Shown here: in pieces, positions 11,665 to 39,142 of the stretch
Layout of the letters: every line of letters starts with the position of its first letter
How positions within the stretch are numbered: position 1 is the first letter of the stretch
Source of the DNA: Amycolatopsis echigonensis
GTDB lineage: Bacteria; Actinomycetota; Actinomycetes; Mycobacteriales; Pseudonocardiaceae
Length of the DNA: 64,000 nucleotides
Direction: 5' to 3'
Assembly: GCF_014174495.1 (NCBI RefSeq)
Contig: NZ_JACJHR010000001.1
Location: 1-64,000, forward strand
Notes under the pieces: model-generated
Databases searched by the model: none
What the model saw: only the letters and a program-made list of their open reading frames with translations
What the model was told of the DNA's origin: nothing
Position numbers and translations under genes: made by a program

Positions 11665-11841
11665 CTGGCTGGCACCTCGTTCGGTGAGGCGTCTGCACGG
11701 AAACAGGCCACTGACCCTACGACGTCGAGAGACGCCCCGGGTCAGGACAGGTCTCCTCGGACTAAGGGGTGACCCAAAGTGGCTTCCCGCAAGGGATTAC
11801 GCCGTGCAGTGCTGAAGCTCTTACGTGGGGGTGCGGGCCAG
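11665..11841 (+). promoter_or_regulatory. M-box (ykoK) Mg2+ riboswitch
   Basis: The segment has the conserved M-box landmarks in order: GGTGAGGC at 11683, the internal GACGTCGAGAGACGCC helix, ACTAAGGGGTGACC, and the 3' signature CAGTGCTGAAGCTCTTACG at 11807-11825. The ends pair through CTGGC/GCCAG and CACC/GGTG. M-box RNAs fold on binding Mg2+ and shut off magnesium transport genes. No U-run terminator follows; a short ORF with a very strong ribosome site begins 98 bases later, so control through translation or Rho is more likely. The regulated gene is the Nramp-like transporter at 12162. Confidence 0.9.
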
Positions 11842-11938: not shown

Positions 11939-12004
11939 ATGAGTCCCGGACTCAGTAGGTCAGCCAGCGCACACCCCGTCCGCCGCACCGCGGCCGGCGG
12001 CTGA
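11939..12004 (+). CDS. Leader ORF of the Nramp gene
   Basis: A 21-codon ORF (beginning MSPGLSRSAS) between the M-box and the transporter gene. Its ribosome site GAGGAGGTGA ends 4 bases before the ATG and is among the best matches to the 16S tail in the window. The second M-box leader carries a short ORF with the same layout and a similar N-terminus (MSPSHSRSS). It ends 157 bases before the transporter start. A regulatory leader peptide, comparable in role to MgtL of Salmonella, is the likeliest reading; this is inference from position and conservation. Confidence 0.6.
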   Translation: MSPGLSRSASAHPVRRTAAGG

Positions 12005-12161: not shown

Positions 12162-13943
12162 ATGGCATTCAAAATGACCCGGCCCACACGCAAGACCGTC
12201 GCTCCCGCCTCGTCGGCGGTGGCCGACACCGCGCACGAGGGCGACATCGTCGGTGCGCTGGGCACGATCAAACAGCACGACCACGGCGCCCGCAGGTCGT
12301 TCTGGCAGCGGCTGCGGACCTTCCTGGTGATCATGGGGCCGGGCCTGGTCGTCATGGTCGGGGACAACGACGCGGGCGGGGTGCAGACCTATGCCCAGGC
12401 CGGCCAGCAGCACGGCACCGGTCTGATGTGGACACTGCTGCTGCTCGTCCCGGTGCTGTATGTCAACCAGGAGATGGTGGTCCGGCTCGGCGCGGTCGCC
12501 CGGGTCGGGCACGCCAAGCTGATCTTCCAGCGGTTCGGGAAATTCTGGGGCGCGTTCAGCGTCGCGGACCTGTTCCTCCTTAACACGCTGACGATCATCA
12601 CCGAGTTCATCGGCGTCACCTACGCGCTGCGCTACTTCGGCATCCCGGACTACCTCTCCGTGCCCGCCGCGGCGGTGCTGCTGTTCACCGTGGTCGCGGG
12701 CGGCTCGTTCCGTCGGTGGGAGCGGTTCCTGTTCGTCCTCATCGCGGCGAACCTGGTGCTCGTCCCGCTGGCGATCATGGTGGGTCCTGACCTCGGCCGG
12801 ATCGGCGGCGGTTTCCTGCCGCAGCTGCCCGGCGGGCTCAACTCGGACCTGCTGCTGCTCGTCGTCAGCATCGTCGGCACGACCGTCGCCCCGTGGCAGC
12901 TGTTCTTCCAGCAGTCCAATGTGGTCGACAAGCGCATCACCCCGCGCTGGATGCGCTACTCCAAGGCCGACTTGTGGGCCGGCATCGTGATCGTGGTCCT
13001 CGGCGCGGTCGCCATCATGGCCGTCACCGCGTTCGGGCTCGCCGGCACCGGCGCCGCCGGAAACTGGGGAGACAACTCCAACGCGGGCACCGTCGCCAGC
13101 GCGCTGGCGAGCTCTCCGCACGCCGGGCACGTCGTGGGCGCCCTGTTCGCGGTGCTGCTGCTGGACGCCTCGCTGATCGGCGCCAACGCGGTCGGCCTCG
13201 CCACCACCTACACCCTCGGCGACGTGTTCAAGAAGCGTCACTCGCTGCACTGGAAGATCAGCCAGGCGCCCGGGTTCTTCATCGGCTACGGCGTCGTGCT
13301 GGCCGTCTCCGCCGGGGTGGTGCTGATCCCCGGCTTCAACGCCGGCCTGATCACCCAGGGCGTGCAGATCCTCGCCGGGGTCCTGCTGCCCTCGGCGACG
13401 GTGTTCCTGGTGCTGCTGTGCAACGACAAAGCCGTTCTCGGCCCGTGGGTCAACACCGTCCGGCAGAACATCGCCGCGGGCATCATCGTGTGGGCACTGG
13501 TCCTGCTGTCGCTGGCCATGACCGCCTCTACGCTGTTCCCCAAAGGATCGGCCTGGTTCCCCGACGGCATCTCCTCCGCCCAGTGGGTCGCCTTCTTCAC
13601 CGTCGGCGCCGGTGTCGGCGCGCTGGGCGGGCTGGCCGTCTTGCTCGCCTCGCGCGTCAAGGCCCGGAAGGAAGCGGCAGCCACCGCCCGGCGCCTCGGC
13701 GGACTGGATCCCGAGCAGGTCGAGGACATCGACGAAGACGCCCAGGACGCCCTCTCCCGCACCGAACGCCAGGCCCTGCTGCGCGCCGATCGGGACACCT
13801 GGCAGACCCCAGCCCTGGACACCTTGCCGCGTCCGGTGTTCTCGCCGCTGCGGAAGGCAGGCATGCTCGCCCTGCGCGGCTACCTCGCCATCGCCGTCGT
13901 CCTCGTCGTCATCACCATCGTCCAAATGGCCACCGGCGGCTGA
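12162..13943 (+). CDS. Nramp-related divalent metal (probably Mg2+) transporter
   Basis: A 593-residue Nramp/SLC11-superfamily carrier with about eleven membrane helices after a 50-residue cytoplasmic N-terminus. The TM1 metal motif, DPGN in canonical Nramp, is D70-A-G-G here (GDNDAGGVQTYAQAG), and the TM6 MPH motif is A243-P-W (GTTVAPWQLFFQQS), so the soft methionine ligand is missing. Loss of that ligand and an M-box riboswitch in the leader fit the Nramp-related magnesium transporters described in Clostridium rather than Mn2+ or Fe2+ uptake. The C-terminal 100 residues form a charged cytoplasmic segment plus a last helix. ATG 12162 follows GGGGGAAG. Substrate is inferred from the riboswitch. 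Confidence 0.88.
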   Translation: MAFKMTRPTRKTVAPASSAVADTAHEGDIVGALGTIKQHDHGARRSFWQRLRTFLVIMGPGLVVMVGDNDAGGVQTYAQAGQQHGTGLMWTLLLLVPVLYVNQEMVVRLGAVARVGHAKLIFQRFGKFWGAFSVADLFLLNTLTIITEFIGVTYALRYFGIPDYLSVPAAAVLLFTVVAGGSFRRWERFLFVLIAANLVLVPLAIMVGPDLGRIGGGFLPQLPGGLNSDLLLLVVSIVGTTVAPWQLFFQQSNVVDKRITPRWMRYSKADLWAGIVIVVLGAVAIMAVTAFGLAGTGAAGNWGDNSNAGTVASALASSPHAGHVVGALFAVLLLDASLIGANAVGLATTYTLGDVFKKRHSLHWKISQAPGFFIGYGVVLAVSAGVVLIPGFNAGLITQGVQILAGVLLPSATVFLVLLCNDKAVLGPWVNTVRQNIAAGIIVWALVLLSLAMTASTLFPKGSAWFPDGISSAQWVAFFTVGAGVGALGGLAVLLASRVKARKEAAATARRLGGLDPEQVEDIDEDAQDALSRTERQALLRADRDTWQTPALDTLPRPVFSPLRKAGMLALRGYLAIAVVLVVITIVQMATGG

Positions 13944-14125: not shown

Positions 14126-14163
14126 ACAACCGTCAAACAGTTGTACAAATGCTTGACAGTTGT
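14126..14163. promoter_or_regulatory. Dyad operator before the second M-box
   Basis: ACAACCGTCAA (14126-14136) and TTGACAGTTGT (14153-14163) form an inverted repeat with one mismatch around an inner near-palindrome CAGTTGTACAAATG (14138-14151). The inner element abuts the -35 TTGACA. The same 14-base element, CAGTTGCACAAGTG in the reading direction, sits in the same place before the mgtA -35. It is a candidate site for the ArsR-family sensor at 38038. Confidence 0.6.
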
Positions 14164-14182
14164 CGGACCGGTGGCGTTCACT
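14153..14182 (+). promoter_or_regulatory. Promoter of the second M-box leader
   Basis: TTGACA at 14153-14158 and a weak TTCACT -10 at 14177-14182, spacer 18. The start of transcription would fall at the beginning of the M-box. The -35 hexamer lies inside the dyad described at 14126-14163. Confidence 0.5.
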
Positions 14183-14187
14183 GGAGG

Positions 14188-14371
14188 GCGGCACCTCGTG
14201 AGGTGAGGCGTCTGTTCGGACATCGGCCACTGACCTGACGACGTCGAGAGACTCCCACGGTCAGGACACCTCTCCCCGGGTTAAGGAGTGAGGCCAAGCG
14301 GCTTCCCGCGCGATGTGCGCGGATACGCCGGGCAGTGCCAAAGCCCTTACGGACTCGCAGGGGTGCGCCGC
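14188..14371 (+). promoter_or_regulatory. Second M-box (ykoK) Mg2+ riboswitch
   Basis: Second copy of the M-box architecture: GGTGAGGC at 14202, GACGTCGAGAGACTCC helix, GGTTAAGGAGTGAGGCC, and the 3' signature CAGTGCCAAAGCCCTTACG at 14333-14351. GCGGC/GCCGC and ACC/GGT close the basal helix. Core positions match the first copy, while stems carry compensatory changes, so it is not a recent identical duplication. It precedes a short leader ORF and a 58-residue protein rather than a transporter. Confidence 0.88.
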
Positions 14372-14477: not shown

Positions 14478-14576
14478 ATGAGTCCGTCGCACAGTCGCAG
14501 CTCGACCGTGATCGACCAACCTTCGGGAGGACCTCATGACCAGCATCCTGACCGGCGCCCGGCAGTGGCGGGCTGA
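14478..14576 (+). CDS. Leader ORF in the second M-box transcript
   Basis: A 32-codon ORF starting MSPSHSRSST with ribosome site GGAGGAGGTGA 4 bases before the ATG. It overlaps the first 14 codons of the 58-residue gene in another frame, so ribosomes on it pass over that gene's start. Its second half is proline-rich (QPSGGPHDQHPDRRP), a feature of Mg2+-sensing leader peptides in enterobacteria. N-terminal similarity to the leader ORF at 11939 supports a conserved role. Confidence 0.55.
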   Translation: MSPSHSRSSTVIDQPSGGPHDQHPDRRPAVAG

Positions 14577-14712
14577 CCCGGCCGTCGAGGCGACCGCACC
14601 GGCCCCCCGCCGTCCGCTCGAGCAGCCCCGGCGGCTGCGGATGACCTGGGAGCCGGTGCTCGACGAGCACGGCACGCGGCGGCTGCGTGCCCGCTGGCGC
14701 GCCGAGCGCTGA
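14536..14712 (+). CDS. 58-residue protein under M-box control, unknown function
   Basis: A small, arginine-rich soluble protein; the C-terminal half reads RLRMTWEPVLDEHGTRRLRA, a strand-turn-strand pattern with a central Trp. GGGAGGACCTC places a good ribosome site before ATG 14536. A 14-bp hairpin follows the stop by 11 bases, so the M-box, leader ORF and this gene form one short transcript. In Mycobacterium tuberculosis an M-box RNA also precedes a short protein of unknown function (Rv1535); whether the two are related cannot be decided here. A role in low-Mg2+ adaptation is inferred only from the riboswitch. Confidence 0.65.
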   Translation: MTSILTGARQWRADPAVEATAPAPRRPLEQPRRLRMTWEPVLDEHGTRRLRARWRAER

Positions 14713-34436: not shown

Positions 34437-35156
34437 CTAGTTCTCGCTGTCCTGGTCGGAGTAGGAGTGCTCGGCCTGCCAGCGCACGCTGGTCACCGAC
34501 GGCTCCATCGACAGCCGGCTCACCGCCGACTCCATCTGCTTGTCGTCACGCTGATCGGCGGACAGTTCGGCGCGCACCTGCACCTGCCCGTCGGTGTCGG
34601 TATTGGTGCTGGTGACCGACTGCAGCGCGAAATCGGTGCGCGCCAGCGCCTGGACGAGCAACGCGCGCACGTGTGCTTCGGCGTCGTCCTTGGTCACCGC
34701 CAGGAAGGTGTACGACGTCGGGGTCTCGCGGCCGGTCGCCGGACGGCGGTCGACCACCCGGCCGAGCGGGCGCAGCGCGATGTTCACCGCCATCACCACG
34801 GCGGTGCCCGCGACCGCGGCCGGGTACAGCCCGGCTCCGGCCAGCGCGCCCACCGCCGCGGAACACCACAGCGTCGCGGCCGTGTTGAGCCCGCGCACGG
34901 TCAGGCCTTCGCGCAGAATCACGCCGGCGCCGAGAAAACCGATTCCGGAAACGATTTGCGCGGCGACCCGGGTCGGGTCGGCGCTCGCTCCGCTGAATCC
35001 GTGCGCGGACAGCAGCACGAACAGCGTCGCACCGGCCGCGACCAGTGCGTTGGTGCGCAGTCCTGCCATCCGGGCGCGGTATTGGCGTTCAAATCCGATC
35101 ACTGTGCCGAGGCCCACTCCGGTGCCCAGGCGCAGCAACATCTCCGCAGTCGTCAT
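34437..35156 (-). CDS. mgtC: MgtC/SapB-family membrane protein
   Basis: A 239-residue protein with four to five helices at the N-terminus carrying the MgtC signature (GVGLGTVIGFERQYRARMAG, then IGFLGAGVILREG and RGLNTAATLWCSAAVGALAG) and a cytoplasmic ACT-like C-terminal domain. MgtC supports growth in low Mg2+ and in host cells, and in Salmonella it is encoded with an MgtA/B ATPase as here. ATG 35156 follows GGGAGCGC; a GTG four codons upstream is in frame. Gap to mgtA is 64 bases. Confidence 0.9.
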   Translation of the reverse strand: MTTAEMLLRLGTGVGLGTVIGFERQYRARMAGLRTNALVAAGATLFVLLSAHGFSGASADPTRVAAQIVSGIGFLGAGVILREGLTVRGLNTAATLWCSAAVGALAGAGLYPAAVAGTAVVMAVNIALRPLGRVVDRRPATGRETPTSYTFLAVTKDDAEAHVRALLVQALARTDFALQSVTSTNTDTDGQVQVRAELSADQRDDKQMESAVSRLSMEPSVTSVRWQAEHSYSDQDSEN

Positions 35157-35220
35157 CTGCGCTCCCACTGATTGTCGCTAAAAGTTCAGAAATGGTCGGG
35201 AAAAGCCGGAAAAAGGACAG

Positions 35221-37788
35221 TTACCACCACGCACGCCGGCGTGCGTAGCCGCGTTTCGCCACCTGAGCTGCCAGCGCGTACCCGGCCAGCACGAGCACCA
35301 GCCACAACAGGTAGCCGGCGGGCAGCGCCTGCATCCGCAGCGGTTCGGCCAATGGCGACAGCGGCACCAGCAGGCCGGCGAGCGCCGCGGCTGCCGTGGC
35401 CAGCACGACCGGTCGGCTGGCGCGCAACGGCGTGCCGCGACCGCGCAGGACGAGCACGACCAGCAACTGCGAGAGCAGCCCTTCGACGAACCAGCCGGTC
35501 TGGAACAGCAGCGGGTCCGCGGCCGCGCCGAAGACGTGCCACAGCACCGCAAAGGTCGCGAGGTCGAACAGCGACGACAACGGGCCGAACACGAGCATGA
35601 AGCCGGTCAGCCCGCGTGCGTCCCAGCGGCGCGGCTTGCTGAGGTAGTCGTCGTCCACCCGGTCCCACGCCAGCGCGAGCTGAGCCAGGTCGTAGAGCAG
35701 GTTCGACACCACGAGCTGGATCGGCAGAATGGGCAGGAACGGGAGGAACGCGCTGGCCGCGAGCACTGACAACACGTTGCCGAAGTTCGACGCGGCGGTG
35801 ATGTTGACGTACTTCAGCGTGTTCCCGAGCGTCCGCCGCCCCTCCGCCACGCCACGAGCGAGCACGCCGAGGTCGCGTTCCAGCAGCACCAGGTCCGCAG
35901 CGTCCTTCGCCGCGTCGGTGGCGGTGTCCGGGGCGATCCCGACGTCGGCGGTGCGCAGCGCGGTGACGTCGTTGACGCCGTCGCCGACGAAGCCGACCGC
36001 ACGTCCGTTCTCGCGCAACGCAGTGACGACTCGGGCCTTGTGCGCCGGCGTGAGCTTCGCGAAGACGGTGGTGTCCTTGACGATCTCGCGCAATTCCGCG
36101 TCGTCCGCTGCTTCGACCTGGCGGCCGAGCACGACTTCGCCGACCGGGATGCCGGCCGAATCCGCGACGCGCGCGGCGACATGCCGGTTGTCCCCGGTCA
36201 GCACTTTCAGCGCGACGCCTTGCTCGCCAAGGGCTTCCACCGCGTTCACGACGCCGTCGCGGACCGGGTCGACGAATCCCACGAAACCGACGAGGATCAT
36301 CTCGTTCTCGTCAGTTTCGTCGTATCCGTCGAGCCGGGCGTCGACTTCCCGTGCGGCGACCGCGAGCACCCGCATGCCGTGTTCGGCGTACGCGCGCACC
36401 AGTTCGTCCGCGCCGATCCGGGCCGCGTGGTCGAATTCGGTGACGACACCGTCGCGGCGCGCGTGGCTGCAGCGCGGCAGGATCTCGTCCGGGTCGCCCT
36501 TGCTGATCAGCAGGTGCTCGCTGCCGCGCCGGACCACGACGCTGGCCCGGCGGCGCGCGTGGTCGAACCCGATCTCGGCGACGCCGGTGAACAGCGCTTC
36601 GGCGACCAGGTCGTCCTCGCCGTCGAACAAGGTCTCGATCGCCTCGTCCAGCCGGTTGTTCCGGTCAGTCTGGAAGCGCACCGCCAGTCCGGCGTATTCG
36701 GCGGCCTCGCCGTCTGGGCTGCCGGAGTAGTCGATGCTGTGCGCGTAGGCGATCCGGTCCTCGGTGAGGGTGCCGGTCTTGTCGACGCACAGCACGTCCA
36801 TCGCGGCGAGGTCCTGGATGGCGTTGAGCCGCTTGACAATCACCTGCCGCCGGGACAACGCGGCCGCGCCCCGGGCGAGGTTCGTGGTGACGATGACCGG
36901 CAGCATCTCCGGCGTGAGGCCGACGGCGACGGCGACCGCGAACATCCCGGCCTGCGCCCAGTCGCCGGTGACCGTGCCGTTGACGACGAGCACGATCGGC
37001 ACCATCACGAGCATGAACCGCACGAGCGTCCAGCCGACGCGGCGCACCCCGGCGTCGAAGCTGGATTCCGCGCGCGGTTCGGCGGATTGCCGGGCCAGCA
37101 CGCCGAAGTACGTGTCGCTGCCGGTCGCGGCTACGACCGCGGTGGCGGTTCCGCTGACCACCGACGTGCCCGCGAAGCCGAGCGCGGGCGTCTCGACGAG
37201 TTCGTGCTCCTCGGGCTTGCCTGGCTGGGGCGCCCGCTTGGCGACCGGCATCGCCTCGCCGGACAGCGCGGACTGGTCGACCACGAAGTCTTTCGCCGCG
37301 ACGATGCGCACGTCAGCCGGGATCACGTCGCCGGGTCCGAGCAGCACGACGTCGCCGGGCACGAGATCTGCTGTGGGCACTTCGCGCTCGGTGCCGGGAA
37401 AGTCCGCCGCAGCGCGCCGACGCACGGTGACGGTCGTGGTGATCTGGTCGCGGACTGCGCTGATCGCGCGCTCGGACCGGGCGTGCTGCCAGTAACGCAG
37501 ACCGATGCTGAGCACGACCATCACGCCGACGGTCACCGCGCCGCGGATGTCGCCGACGCCAGCGAAGACCACGCCGAGGGCGGTCAGCAACGCGACGAAC
37601 GGACTGCGCGCGGCGGCCCAGATGCGGACGGGCGCGTGGACCGTGCCGTCGATGCGGTTGTCGCCGAAGCGGCGCAACCGTTCGGCCGCCTCGTTCTCGG
37701 TGAGGCCTTTGGGCGAGCTGTCGAGATTCCGGAAAAGGGTCAGCACCGGCGCGTCGCCGTGGGCGCGCAGGGCGGGAAAGCGGGTCAT
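35221..37788 (-). CDS. mgtA: Magnesium-type P3B-ATPase MgtA
   Basis: An 855-residue P-type ATPase with ten membrane helices. The phosphorylation motif is D336KTGT, the actuator loop has SALSGEAMPV, the helix-4 motif is GLTPEMLPVIVTTNLARG (type IIIB), and the hinge is GDGVNDVTALRTADVGIA. The C-terminal six-helix half is present and the length fits MgtA/MgtB. It imports Mg2+ across the membrane. The promoter lies 170 bases upstream with an operator-like element, and the leader has a short ORF. First gene of a probable mgtA-mgtC-permease-ATPase operon. Confidence 0.92.
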   Translation of the reverse strand: MTRFPALRAHGDAPVLTLFRNLDSSPKGLTENEAAERLRRFGDNRIDGTVHAPVRIWAAARSPFVALLTALGVVFAGVGDIRGAVTVGVMVVLSIGLRYWQHARSERAISAVRDQITTTVTVRRRAAADFPGTEREVPTADLVPGDVVLLGPGDVIPADVRIVAAKDFVVDQSALSGEAMPVAKRAPQPGKPEEHELVETPALGFAGTSVVSGTATAVVAATGSDTYFGVLARQSAEPRAESSFDAGVRRVGWTLVRFMLVMVPIVLVVNGTVTGDWAQAGMFAVAVAVGLTPEMLPVIVTTNLARGAAALSRRQVIVKRLNAIQDLAAMDVLCVDKTGTLTEDRIAYAHSIDYSGSPDGEAAEYAGLAVRFQTDRNNRLDEAIETLFDGEDDLVAEALFTGVAEIGFDHARRRASVVVRRGSEHLLISKGDPDEILPRCSHARRDGVVTEFDHAARIGADELVRAYAEHGMRVLAVAAREVDARLDGYDETDENEMILVGFVGFVDPVRDGVVNAVEALGEQGVALKVLTGDNRHVAARVADSAGIPVGEVVLGRQVEAADDAELREIVKDTTVFAKLTPAHKARVVTALRENGRAVGFVGDGVNDVTALRTADVGIAPDTATDAAKDAADLVLLERDLGVLARGVAEGRRTLGNTLKYVNITAASNFGNVLSVLAASAFLPFLPILPIQLVVSNLLYDLAQLALAWDRVDDDYLSKPRRWDARGLTGFMLVFGPLSSLFDLATFAVLWHVFGAAADPLLFQTGWFVEGLLSQLLVVLVLRGRGTPLRASRPVVLATAAAALAGLLVPLSPLAEPLRMQALPAGYLLWLVLVLAGYALAAQVAKRGYARRRAWW

Positions 37789-37843: not shown

Positions 37844-37900
37844 CTACCTGGCTGCCGGGGTTCCCGCACGGTCGTGCTGACTACTTCCTTCGCCGGTCAC
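37844..37900 (-). CDS. Short leader ORF before mgtA
   Basis: Eighteen codons, MTGEGSSQHDRAGTPAAR, from GTG 37900 to TAG, in the mgtA leader. Its ribosome site GGAGGAGGTGA (37906-37916) matches those of the two M-box leader ORFs. It ends 55 bases before the mgtA ATG. A regulatory peptide is inferred; no M-box is present in this leader. Confidence 0.45.
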   Translation of the reverse strand: MTGEGSSQHDRAGTPAAR

Positions 37901-37956: not shown

Positions 37957-38000
37957 AGTAGAGCGCAGATCACGGAAACAGTCAAACACTTGTGCAACTG
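37957..38000 (-). promoter_or_regulatory. mgtA promoter and adjoining operator
   Basis: Minus strand: near-palindrome CAGTTGCACAAGTG (plus 37987-38000), then TTGACT (37980-37985), 17 bases, TCTACT (37957-37962). Aligned with the promoter at 14138-14158, 21 of the first 27 bases agree. The element is also 37 bases before the ArsR start, so one site can serve both directions. Confidence 0.7.
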
Positions 38001-38037: not shown

Positions 38038-38394
38038 ATGTCCGTCGTGTCCACCCCTTCCCAGCCCCCGCCAGAACCTCTCCCCGCCGGTCTGCTGCAG
38101 GACGCGGCCGCGACGTTCGGCCTGCTGTCCGCGACCGTGCGGCTGCACCTGCTCTGGCTCCTGTCGCACGGAGAACGCGACGTCGGCACGCTCGCCGAGG
38201 AGACCGGCCAGACCGTGCCGACCGCGAGCCACCACCTGGGCAAACTGAAACTCGCCGGTCTCGTGCGGGCTCGCCGGGAGGGGAAGCGGCAGGTGTACGT
38301 GCTGGAAGACCCGCACGTGCGGCACATCGTCCAGCTGGCCGTGCAGCATCACCAGGAGCTGTCCGGCGACGTCCGGCAGACCAAAGGCGCTTGA
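38038..38394 (+). CDS. ArsR/SmtB-family alpha5-site metal sensor
   Basis: A 118-residue ArsR-family repressor. The recognition region is LAEETGQTVPTASHHLGKLKLAGLV, in pieces, followed by the wing RREGKRQVYVL. In the last helix D91, H93, H104 and E107 fall exactly in the D-x-H-x10-H-x2-E spacing of the SmtB/CzrA/NmtR alpha5 site, so a divalent metal ligand is expected (Zn2+, Ni2+ or Co2+ in known members); no alpha3 CxC motif is present. It is divergent from mgtA and probably represses it and itself. ATG 38038 has GAGAGG directly upstream; GTG 38047 is an alternative with better spacing. Confidence 0.88.
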   Translation: MSVVSTPSQPPPEPLPAGLLQDAAATFGLLSATVRLHLLWLLSHGERDVGTLAEETGQTVPTASHHLGKLKLAGLVRARREGKRQVYVLEDPHVRHIVQLAVQHHQELSGDVRQTKGA

Positions 38395-38419: not shown

Positions 38420-39142
38420 ATGGCCGAGCTGAACTTCTACTTCGATCCGGTGTGCCCGTTCGCGTGGATGACCAGCAAATGGGTCCGCCAGGTCGCCCGC
38501 CAGCGCTCGTACGACGTGGACTGGCGGTTCATCTCGCTGCGCTTGCTGAACGCGCACGTGGACTACGCGACGCACTTCCCGCCGGAGTACGACGCTTCGC
38601 ACACGGCCGGTCTGCGCCTGCTCCGCCTGGCGGCCGCAGTGCGCGCGAAGCACGGCCGGGAAGCGGTCGGTCCGCTGTACGAGGCGCTGGGGGAGCAGAA
38701 CTTCGAGAGCGGTCTGGTCGAGGACACCGCCTCGGCACGCGCTGCACACGGCACTCGTTCGGCCGCTTCGACGGCTTTGTCGCGGGCTGGCCTTCCGGCG
38801 GACCTTGCCGATGCGGTCGACGACTCTCAGTGGGATGCCGAAATCCAGCGTGAGACCGACGAAGCCCTTTTGCTGACCGGAAAGGACGTCGGGACGCCGA
38901 TCCTGCACTTCCGGCCGCCCGAGGGAGTAGCGTTCTTCGGCCCGGTGATCAGCCGGCTGCCGTCGGACGAGGAGGCGGTGGAGCTGTGGGACCACGTGGT
39001 GGGATTGGCGGCGTTCCCGGGTTTCGCCGAGCTGAAGCGGAGTTTGCGGGAGATGCCGCAGCTCCCGTCGTTCGGGGTGGAGGCGGGGGAGACCGGGAAA
39101 GAACAGGATTGGCACGGCGGGAGCAGGCGGTTGAAGAAGTAG
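38420..39142 (+). CDS. DsbA-family (Rv2466c-like) thioredoxin-fold protein
   Basis: A 240-residue thioredoxin-fold protein with inserted helical domain, similar to the mycothiol-dependent nitroreductase Rv2466c. The redox motif, CPWC in Rv2466c, is C12-P-F-A15 (FYFDPVCPFAW), so only the N-terminal Cys remains. GTPILHF provides the cis-Pro loop. A monothiol mechanism using mycothiol is plausible. It follows the ArsR gene by 25 bases and may be co-transcribed with it. Confidence 0.82.
   Translation: MAELNFYFDPVCPFAWMTSKWVRQVARQRSYDVDWRFISLRLLNAHVDYATHFPPEYDASHTAGLRLLRLAAAVRAKHGREAVGPLYEALGEQNFESGLVEDTASARAAHGTRSAASTALSRAGLPADLADAVDDSQWDAEIQRETDEALLLTGKDVGTPILHFRPPEGVAFFGPVISRLPSDEEAVELWDHVVGLAAFPGFAELKRSLREMPQLPSFGVEAGETGKEQDWHGGSRRLKK

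Follow-up and report, generated by a model that had tools for sequence, protein, structure and literature searches.

ArsR-family repressors are sensors of toxic or trace metals, and members of the SmtB, CzrA, and NmtR type protect cells from transition metals or metalloids, in most cases via efflux genes. For the import of magnesium, the available excerpts of two papers describe the M-box as an off-switch that allows expression at low Mg2+ (PMC12810186, PMC4072509). In mycobacteria, the M-box is followed by a conserved short reading frame, uORF2, whose peptide is described as mycobacteria-specific in the accessible part of PMC12810186. In Salmonella, mgtA is controlled by the two-component activator PhoP together with a leader RNA, as set out in PMC4072509, a text without the word ArsR. 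An ArsR regulator of Mg2+ import was also not found by title in the open-licence literature, where absence is a weak indication. The structure 7QIA represents EleNRMT, a solved magnesium transporter, and NRAMP-related magnesium transporters (NRMTs) carry the motif pair DxxG/TxxA according to the accessible part of PMC8806188.

In the DNA analyzed here (the window, 64,000 nucleotides of Amycolatopsis echigonensis), two magnesium-related promoters are each directly preceded by a palindrome to which a single repressor probably binds. In related bacteria, this repressor marks magnesium-import genes, at times immediately upstream of a magnesium-sensing riboswitch. Comparison of genomes makes it very likely that the two copies, S1 and S2, are operators of a single ArsR/SmtB repressor encoded at 38038-38394, which would govern magnesium import. 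The features concerned are the following:

11669-11837, plus strand: M-box 1, upstream of NRAMP1 and without operator, used as internal contrast
11939-12004, plus strand: upstream ORF MSPGLSRSASAHPVRRTAAGG behind M-box 1
12162-13943, plus strand: NRAMP1, NRMT-type (magnesium) transporter behind M-box 1
14126-14163, no strand assigned: extended dyad around S1 with the core CAGTTGTACAAATG, covering the -35 box of the M-box2 promoter
14153-14182, plus strand: M-box2 promoter, by eye, with -35 box TTGACA (14153-14158), -10 box TTCACT (14177-14182), and 18 bp spacing
14188-14369, plus strand: M-box (Mg2+) riboswitch aptamer 2 (M-box2), RF00380
14479-14577, plus strand: upstream ORF MSPSHSRSS..., 32 aa, with strong Shine-Dalgarno sequence
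14536-14712, plus strand: 58-aa ORF, likely the main product of the M-box2 transcript
34437-35168, minus strand: mgtC-type gene directly downstream of mgtA (PF02308, 128.2 bits)
35221-37788, minus strand: mgtA, magnesium-translocating P-type ATPase (TIGR01524, 954.2 bits, cut-off 610.75)
37844-37900, minus strand: upstream ORF VTGEGSSQHDRAGTPAAR in the mgtA leader
37957-37985, minus strand: mgtA promoter, by eye, with -35 box TTGACT (37980-37985) and -10 box TCTACT (37957-37962)
37987-38000, no strand assigned: operator S2 in the arsR-mgtA intergenic region
38038-38394, plus strand: arsR (PF01022, NF033788), proposed to encode the binder of S1, S2, and S3

The core of S1, CAGTTGTACAAATG, occupies 14138-14151 of the plus strand, one base 5' of the TTGACA box, and S2, CAGTTGCACAAGTG, has the same position relative to the TTGACT box of mgtA on the minus strand. 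The same element had originally been predicted in front of both boxes on the basis of an alignment of 27 bases with 21 matches; it is present at both places, and the alignment is reproduced. The dyad at S1 is wider than in that prediction, with 16 of 19 positions matching across 14126-14163. At one mismatch, the core has 9 further matches in the genome, one of which extends into a third site. This site, S3 (G000:C190:71594), is located on another contig upstream of a second NRAMP gene of the magnesium type, NRAMP2. Neither S3 nor the upstream ORFs nor the mgtC-type gene behind mgtA were part of the original prediction. Another small palindrome, TGACCTGAGTCA-like, is conserved beside S3, at about 2123-2138 of locus L010 and in related loci, where it separates the operator from the gene on the opposite side.

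EleNRMT (7QIA) is the best PDB match for both NRAMP1 and NRAMP2. As described for NRMTs in the available parts of PMC8806188 and PMC4072509, both proteins have T-x-x-A in place of the methionine motif of transition-metal transporters. NRAMP1, with DAGG and TTVA, fits the NRMT motif pair; NRAMP2, with DAGA and TTVA, differs from NRMTs by an A instead of G, so that its first motif is inexact. By family, the recognized transporter targets in this genome thus appear to concern magnesium.

The transcript that starts behind S1 resembles known M-box (ykoK, RF00380) transcripts in opening with a full M-box. This second M-box, also part of the original prediction, is real: it scores 95.9 bits (gathering threshold 44), is of full length, and begins about at the predicted transcription start. 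Unlike the usual M-box, it has a proposed protein operator in front, which is missing at 41 of the 46 M-box promoters compared (29 from an order-wide search that listed more than 70 rows, 14 NRMT leaders, one from G055, and the two of the window). Operators with scores of at least 18.0 were found at the M-box2 promoter, at two promoters of G200, and at one each of G267 and G305, and all others scored 4.7 or less. The combination present at S1 therefore occurs in three other genomes, of which G305 is marginal: with 18.0, its site is near the peak that a comparable matrix reaches in random sequence, and it has a displaced TTGAC. G267 has the NRMT gene, M-box, operator, and arsR in one row, arsR lying beyond the operator. 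This recurrence indicates that the two-layer design at S1 is no single accident, and it supports the earlier proposal that one repressor may control both loci of the window, with the M-box as a second layer at one of them. Within the genus, M-boxes were first expected to be common; this expectation was dropped when they were detected in 2 of 80 genomes, under stricter filters by which weak matches are lost.

It is nevertheless conceivable, though rather improbable, that S1 is a decayed leftover that served a lost transporter and that the M-box2 transcript is now useless. This transcript opens with small ORFs only, and in three other genomes of the genus (G016, G032, G045) the operator promoter has been kept after loss of NRAMP2, with an LCP-type gene now being next to it. 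A leftover is at odds with the nearly perfect dyad of S1 and with the full-length, high-scoring aptamer. In addition, homologs of the 58-aa ORF exist elsewhere. One is encoded behind NRAMP2 in G009 (L074), the only other one of the 80 genus genomes with such an ORF, and another, in a different genus (G219, L160), lies behind an operator promoter of its own. Searches of Pfam and NCBIfam gave no match for the 58-aa protein. At the loci with NRAMP2 loss (L076, L077, L079), the kept operator promoter faces the LCP-type cell-wall gene, an identity established by Pfam for L084 only.

The reading of S1 and S2 as operators of the neighboring ArsR was further examined in 80 genomes of the genus. In 23 of these, an ArsR was detected at E 1e-25 or better; the one of G057 was dropped because it belongs to a different ArsR clade and has no operator (best match with 4 mismatches). 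All 22 remaining orthologs have the operator upstream of arsR with at most two mismatches, and 20 of them are directly divergent from mgtA. Matches to TTGYACAANNGYTTGACWGTT with up to two mismatches are found in 20 genomes, all of which are among the 22 with ArsR, and in none of the other 58. Since much of this co-occurrence is due to the site at arsR itself, sites unlinked to arsR are the fair test. Unlinked copies with at most one mismatch are present in 9 of the 22 genomes with ArsR and in 0 of the 58 without (Fisher 2.1e-6), although values of about 2e-6 overstate the independence of related genomes. NRAMP2 lies downstream of the unlinked site in 6 of these 9 genomes, the other three being G016, G032, and G045, and S1 is a further unlinked site in the genome of the window. 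An mgtA gene with at least 63% identity is present in all 22 genomes with ArsR, and mgtA was also found in 4 of the 58 others (three at 66%, and a distant one at 41%). Upstream of these 4 genes and of 3 distant paralogs in ArsR-bearing genomes, the matrix score is 2.7 at most. Two-mismatch matches in G213, G215, G226, G234, G195, G379, G106:C9, and G046:C38 were rejected as chance, no regulon gene being recognized next to them.

Outside the genus, 40 loci were inspected, mostly those with higher-scoring ArsR matches, and orthologs were chosen by score. In 17 of the 19 arsR-mgtA loci L120-L138, the palindrome (up to three mismatches) is positioned one base before TTGA; the searched stretch of L130 and L137 shows no clear operator at arsR. 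Another nine mgtA-linked loci, from genus g30, have a related but changed palindrome without TTGAC. The operator is still found before mgtA in G058, where arsR is 356 kb away. Unlinked or separate operator sites are located upstream of NRMT genes in G219 and G106, and G200 has operator sites at both mgtA and the NRMT gene around arsR. The exact word CANTTGYRCAAGTGYTTGAC occurs in 14 stretches among 84,980 genomes, of which 8 belong to Amycolatopsis, 3 to Mycobacteriaceae, and 3 to unrelated groups; 10 of the 11 actinobacterial stretches adjoin arsR, mgtA, NRAMP2, or an LCP-like gene. Genes beside the fetched sites were identified partly by eye.

NRMT genes are present in 29 of 390 family genomes (38 rows); NRAMP1 of the window and two fragmentary genes were left out of the count. 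For the first six rows, loci of 6-10 kb were scanned, and for the others loci of 1.0-1.4 kb. With a score of at least 15.8 in the right orientation counted as a promoter site, the operator is present at 13 of 17 NRMT promoters in ArsR-bearing genomes versus 0 of 18 in the others, whose best score is 3.6. This count treats the divergent ArsR of G267 (54% over 59 aa) as present, and the figures become 12 of 16 versus 1 of 19 if it is taken as absent. G180, G196, and G310 were counted as lacking the ArsR, their matches being sister-clade or unplaced proteins. The four misses include G102 and G114, where by coordinates the NRMT gene directly follows mgtA; the match of 16.8 in G102 is not in the right orientation and was not scored as a site. 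In G176, the NRMT gene has an M-box only, and in G361 neither operator nor M-box is present. The search of the whole genome and of related genomes, which had been suggested together with the original prediction, shows that the element co-occurs with the ArsR of the window within the genus and is present at the majority of the arsR-mgtA loci inspected from other genera.

The ArsR of the window has the winged-helix domain PF01022 (HTH_5; 39.7 bits, threshold 22) and matches NF033788 (77.2 bits, threshold 55). Its PDB matches comprise chains of SmtB, CadC, NmtR, and CzrA, the best one being 2KKO, an uncharacterized ArsR-family protein. With the SmtB-type alpha-5 pattern D-x-H-x10-H-x2-E, including all four ligands, and with a putative palindromic operator between divergent genes, the system resembles known ArsR/SmtB sensors such as SmtB, CzrA, and NmtR. 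It differs from them in that the protein appears to mark Mg2+ import genes and in that the alpha-5 ligands are not conserved among the mgtA-linked orthologs: all four are found in 22 of 51, D, H, and H in 30 of 51, and they are lost, for example, in L136, L139, and L143. All 51 mgtA-linked proteins fall on one side of the midpoint-rooted ArsR tree, along with 3 others, and the fork has a support of 93/80.

That a different transcription factor binds the element, the ArsR near mgtA being a mere neighbor, is improbable. This alternative would account for L175 (Mycolicibacterium sp. P9-64), which has the exact pattern without an ArsR detected within its 8 kb, and for L148, L149, and L182, where the element is accompanied by a more distant ArsR. 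Even at these three loci, however, an ArsR adjoins the element; the element also tracks this ArsR across genomes with unlinked copies included, is present at arsR itself in 22 of 22 genus orthologs, and is accompanied by a largely conserved recognition helix in the operator-bearing ArsR rows. The sister-clade ArsRs of L148 and L149 have a palindrome of the same kind before TTGAC, with 1 and 0 mismatches, respectively, divergent from a gene of the sodium/calcium-exchanger family (PF01699). L182 (Mycolicibacterium komossense) has the exact operator, and its ArsR, which forms a long branch, is found on the sister-clade side of the tree and not on the mgtA-linked one. These loci suggest that the operator word may be common to related ArsRs, which may act on other genes for divalent cations. 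The original prediction named the ArsR divergent from mgtA as the binder; cross-genome co-occurrence favors this assignment, while L148 and L149 count against a strict one-to-one pairing of this ArsR with the operator. By eye, arsR of L182 is divergent from an LCP-like gene. Upstream of other sister-clade arsR genes that are unlinked to mgtA (L152-L155, L158-L159, L066), TTGCGAAA-like words replace TTGYRCAA.

It is very improbable that the element, instead of being a repressor operator, extends the promoter as a recognition motif of an alternative sigma factor or an activator. Such a motif would fit the nearly invariable distance of one base to TTGAC or TTGAA at mgtA and NRMT promoters. The element is palindromic, however, the nine g30 loci keep the related palindrome in the absence of TTGAC, and many M-box promoters elsewhere have TTGAC without the element.

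Across the 9,662,876 bases (302 contigs) of the genome, S1 and S2 are the sole exact copies of the core palindrome CANTTGYRCAANTG. A reversed control pattern has 71 places with up to one mismatch versus 11 for the real pattern, which indicates that the core is no common word. A high frequency at random positions, which had been named as an argument against the original prediction, was thus not observed. The eight other one-mismatch sites (L005-L009, L011-L013) were rejected because their flanks, by eye, have no extended match. A matrix was built from 49 sites of other genomes, with the window sites excluded; these sites were picked by best consensus match and are partly self-selected. With this matrix, S2 (46.3) and S1 (37.9, and 35.2 on the other strand) are the top two sites of the window. 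The next scores, -0.1 and -1.0, fall on S2 itself, and the best match overlapping neither site reaches -1.1; in 20 Mb of random sequence generated by a Markov-1 model of the window, the maximum is 17.9. A matrix of the 22 distinct arsR/mgtA-type sites alone gives 31.1 for S1, and unrelated loci from that genome, 31.7 kb in total, peak at 6.6; the random-sequence maximum refers to the 49-site matrix. The likeness of S1 and S2 beyond chance is thereby confirmed. A loose search of the window with up to two mismatches is unconvincing beyond chance (5 matches versus 1.46 expected; 3 of 100 shuffles as high), and a chance resemblance of the two promoters, for which this search would speak, is refuted to near certainty by genome-wide uniqueness and by held-out scores far above background.

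The sites, their rarity and conservation, their association with this ArsR across genomes, and the type of the target genes are observed directly; we infer binding of the ArsR to its operators, repression, autoregulation, and release by a signal. An ArsR dimer on CANTTGYRCAANTG next to the -35 box would block transcription, and most likely it is the apo-repressor that sits on the palindrome and hides the -35 boxes. Occupation of S2 would repress mgtA-mgtC and arsR itself; autoregulation is expected because S2 is close upstream of arsR. Occupation of S1 would repress the M-box2 transcript, and that of S3 the second NRAMP-type magnesium transporter. At S1, the M-box would add a magnesium check at the RNA level. 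The physiology would be coherent if a shortage of Mg2+ or an excess of a competitor released the repressor from the DNA, with the M-box permitting expression at low Mg2+ only. As to the signal, the simplest guess for the protein of the window, a weak one, is a transition metal bound at alpha-5 that reports excess over Mg2+. As in Salmonella mgtA, described in the excerpt of PMC4072509, control at the DNA level and at the RNA level would meet on an Mg2+ transporter gene; unlike there, the proposed DNA-level component is an ArsR repressor, combined in some genomes with an M-box.

In the leaders of mgtA, 29 of 43 contain a short ORF with strong Shine-Dalgarno sequence and a VTGEGSS-like start, a pattern that occurs in the window in the mgtA leader only. 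Leaders of NRMT genes or small ORFs without M-box encode ...SPGRS... in 9 of 15 cases. M-box leaders encode MSSSDSP... in many loci of family f8 (presumably Mycobacteriaceae) and SSPGRS... in several of the family of the window. In our reading, these leaders share a single design whose front ends can be exchanged and whose upstream ORFs are putative; the variation by codon position gives a weak, mixed signal of their translation. The loci with upstream ORFs are L074, L075, L078, L081, L082, L084, L160, L161, and L083. The order of M-box and short ORF with strong Shine-Dalgarno sequence is shared with mycobacterial uORF2 as presented in the accessible part of PMC12810186, whereas similar ORFs are found here also behind a protein operator without M-box; homology to the uORF2 peptide is presumed. 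It is tentatively suggested, with slightly more doubt than belief, that the ArsR is an actinobacterial magnesium-homeostasis repressor whose operator is interchangeable or stackable with the M-box RNA on one conserved leader, in which the short upstream ORF is followed by the Mg2+ transporter, and that it senses the Mg2+ status, either by itself or relative to a competing metal, and is not a toxic-metal guard. An ArsR that marks both P-type and NRAMP-type importers and is placed ahead of a magnesium riboswitch in several genomes would, if true, add a new regulator of Mg2+ import at the protein level. A single genome would then allow comparison of the protein switch with the RNA switch, since NRAMP1 has the M-box alone, mgtA and NRAMP2 the operator alone, and M-box2 both.

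Behind both M-boxes of the window, ORFs of the MSP..SRS type (11939-12004 and 14479-14577) follow with strong Shine-Dalgarno sequences, and SPGRS upstream ORFs, also with strong ones, are seen behind operator-only promoters. Just behind arsR, a gene of the Rv2466c-like mycothiol-dependent nitroreductase family is located at 38420-39142.
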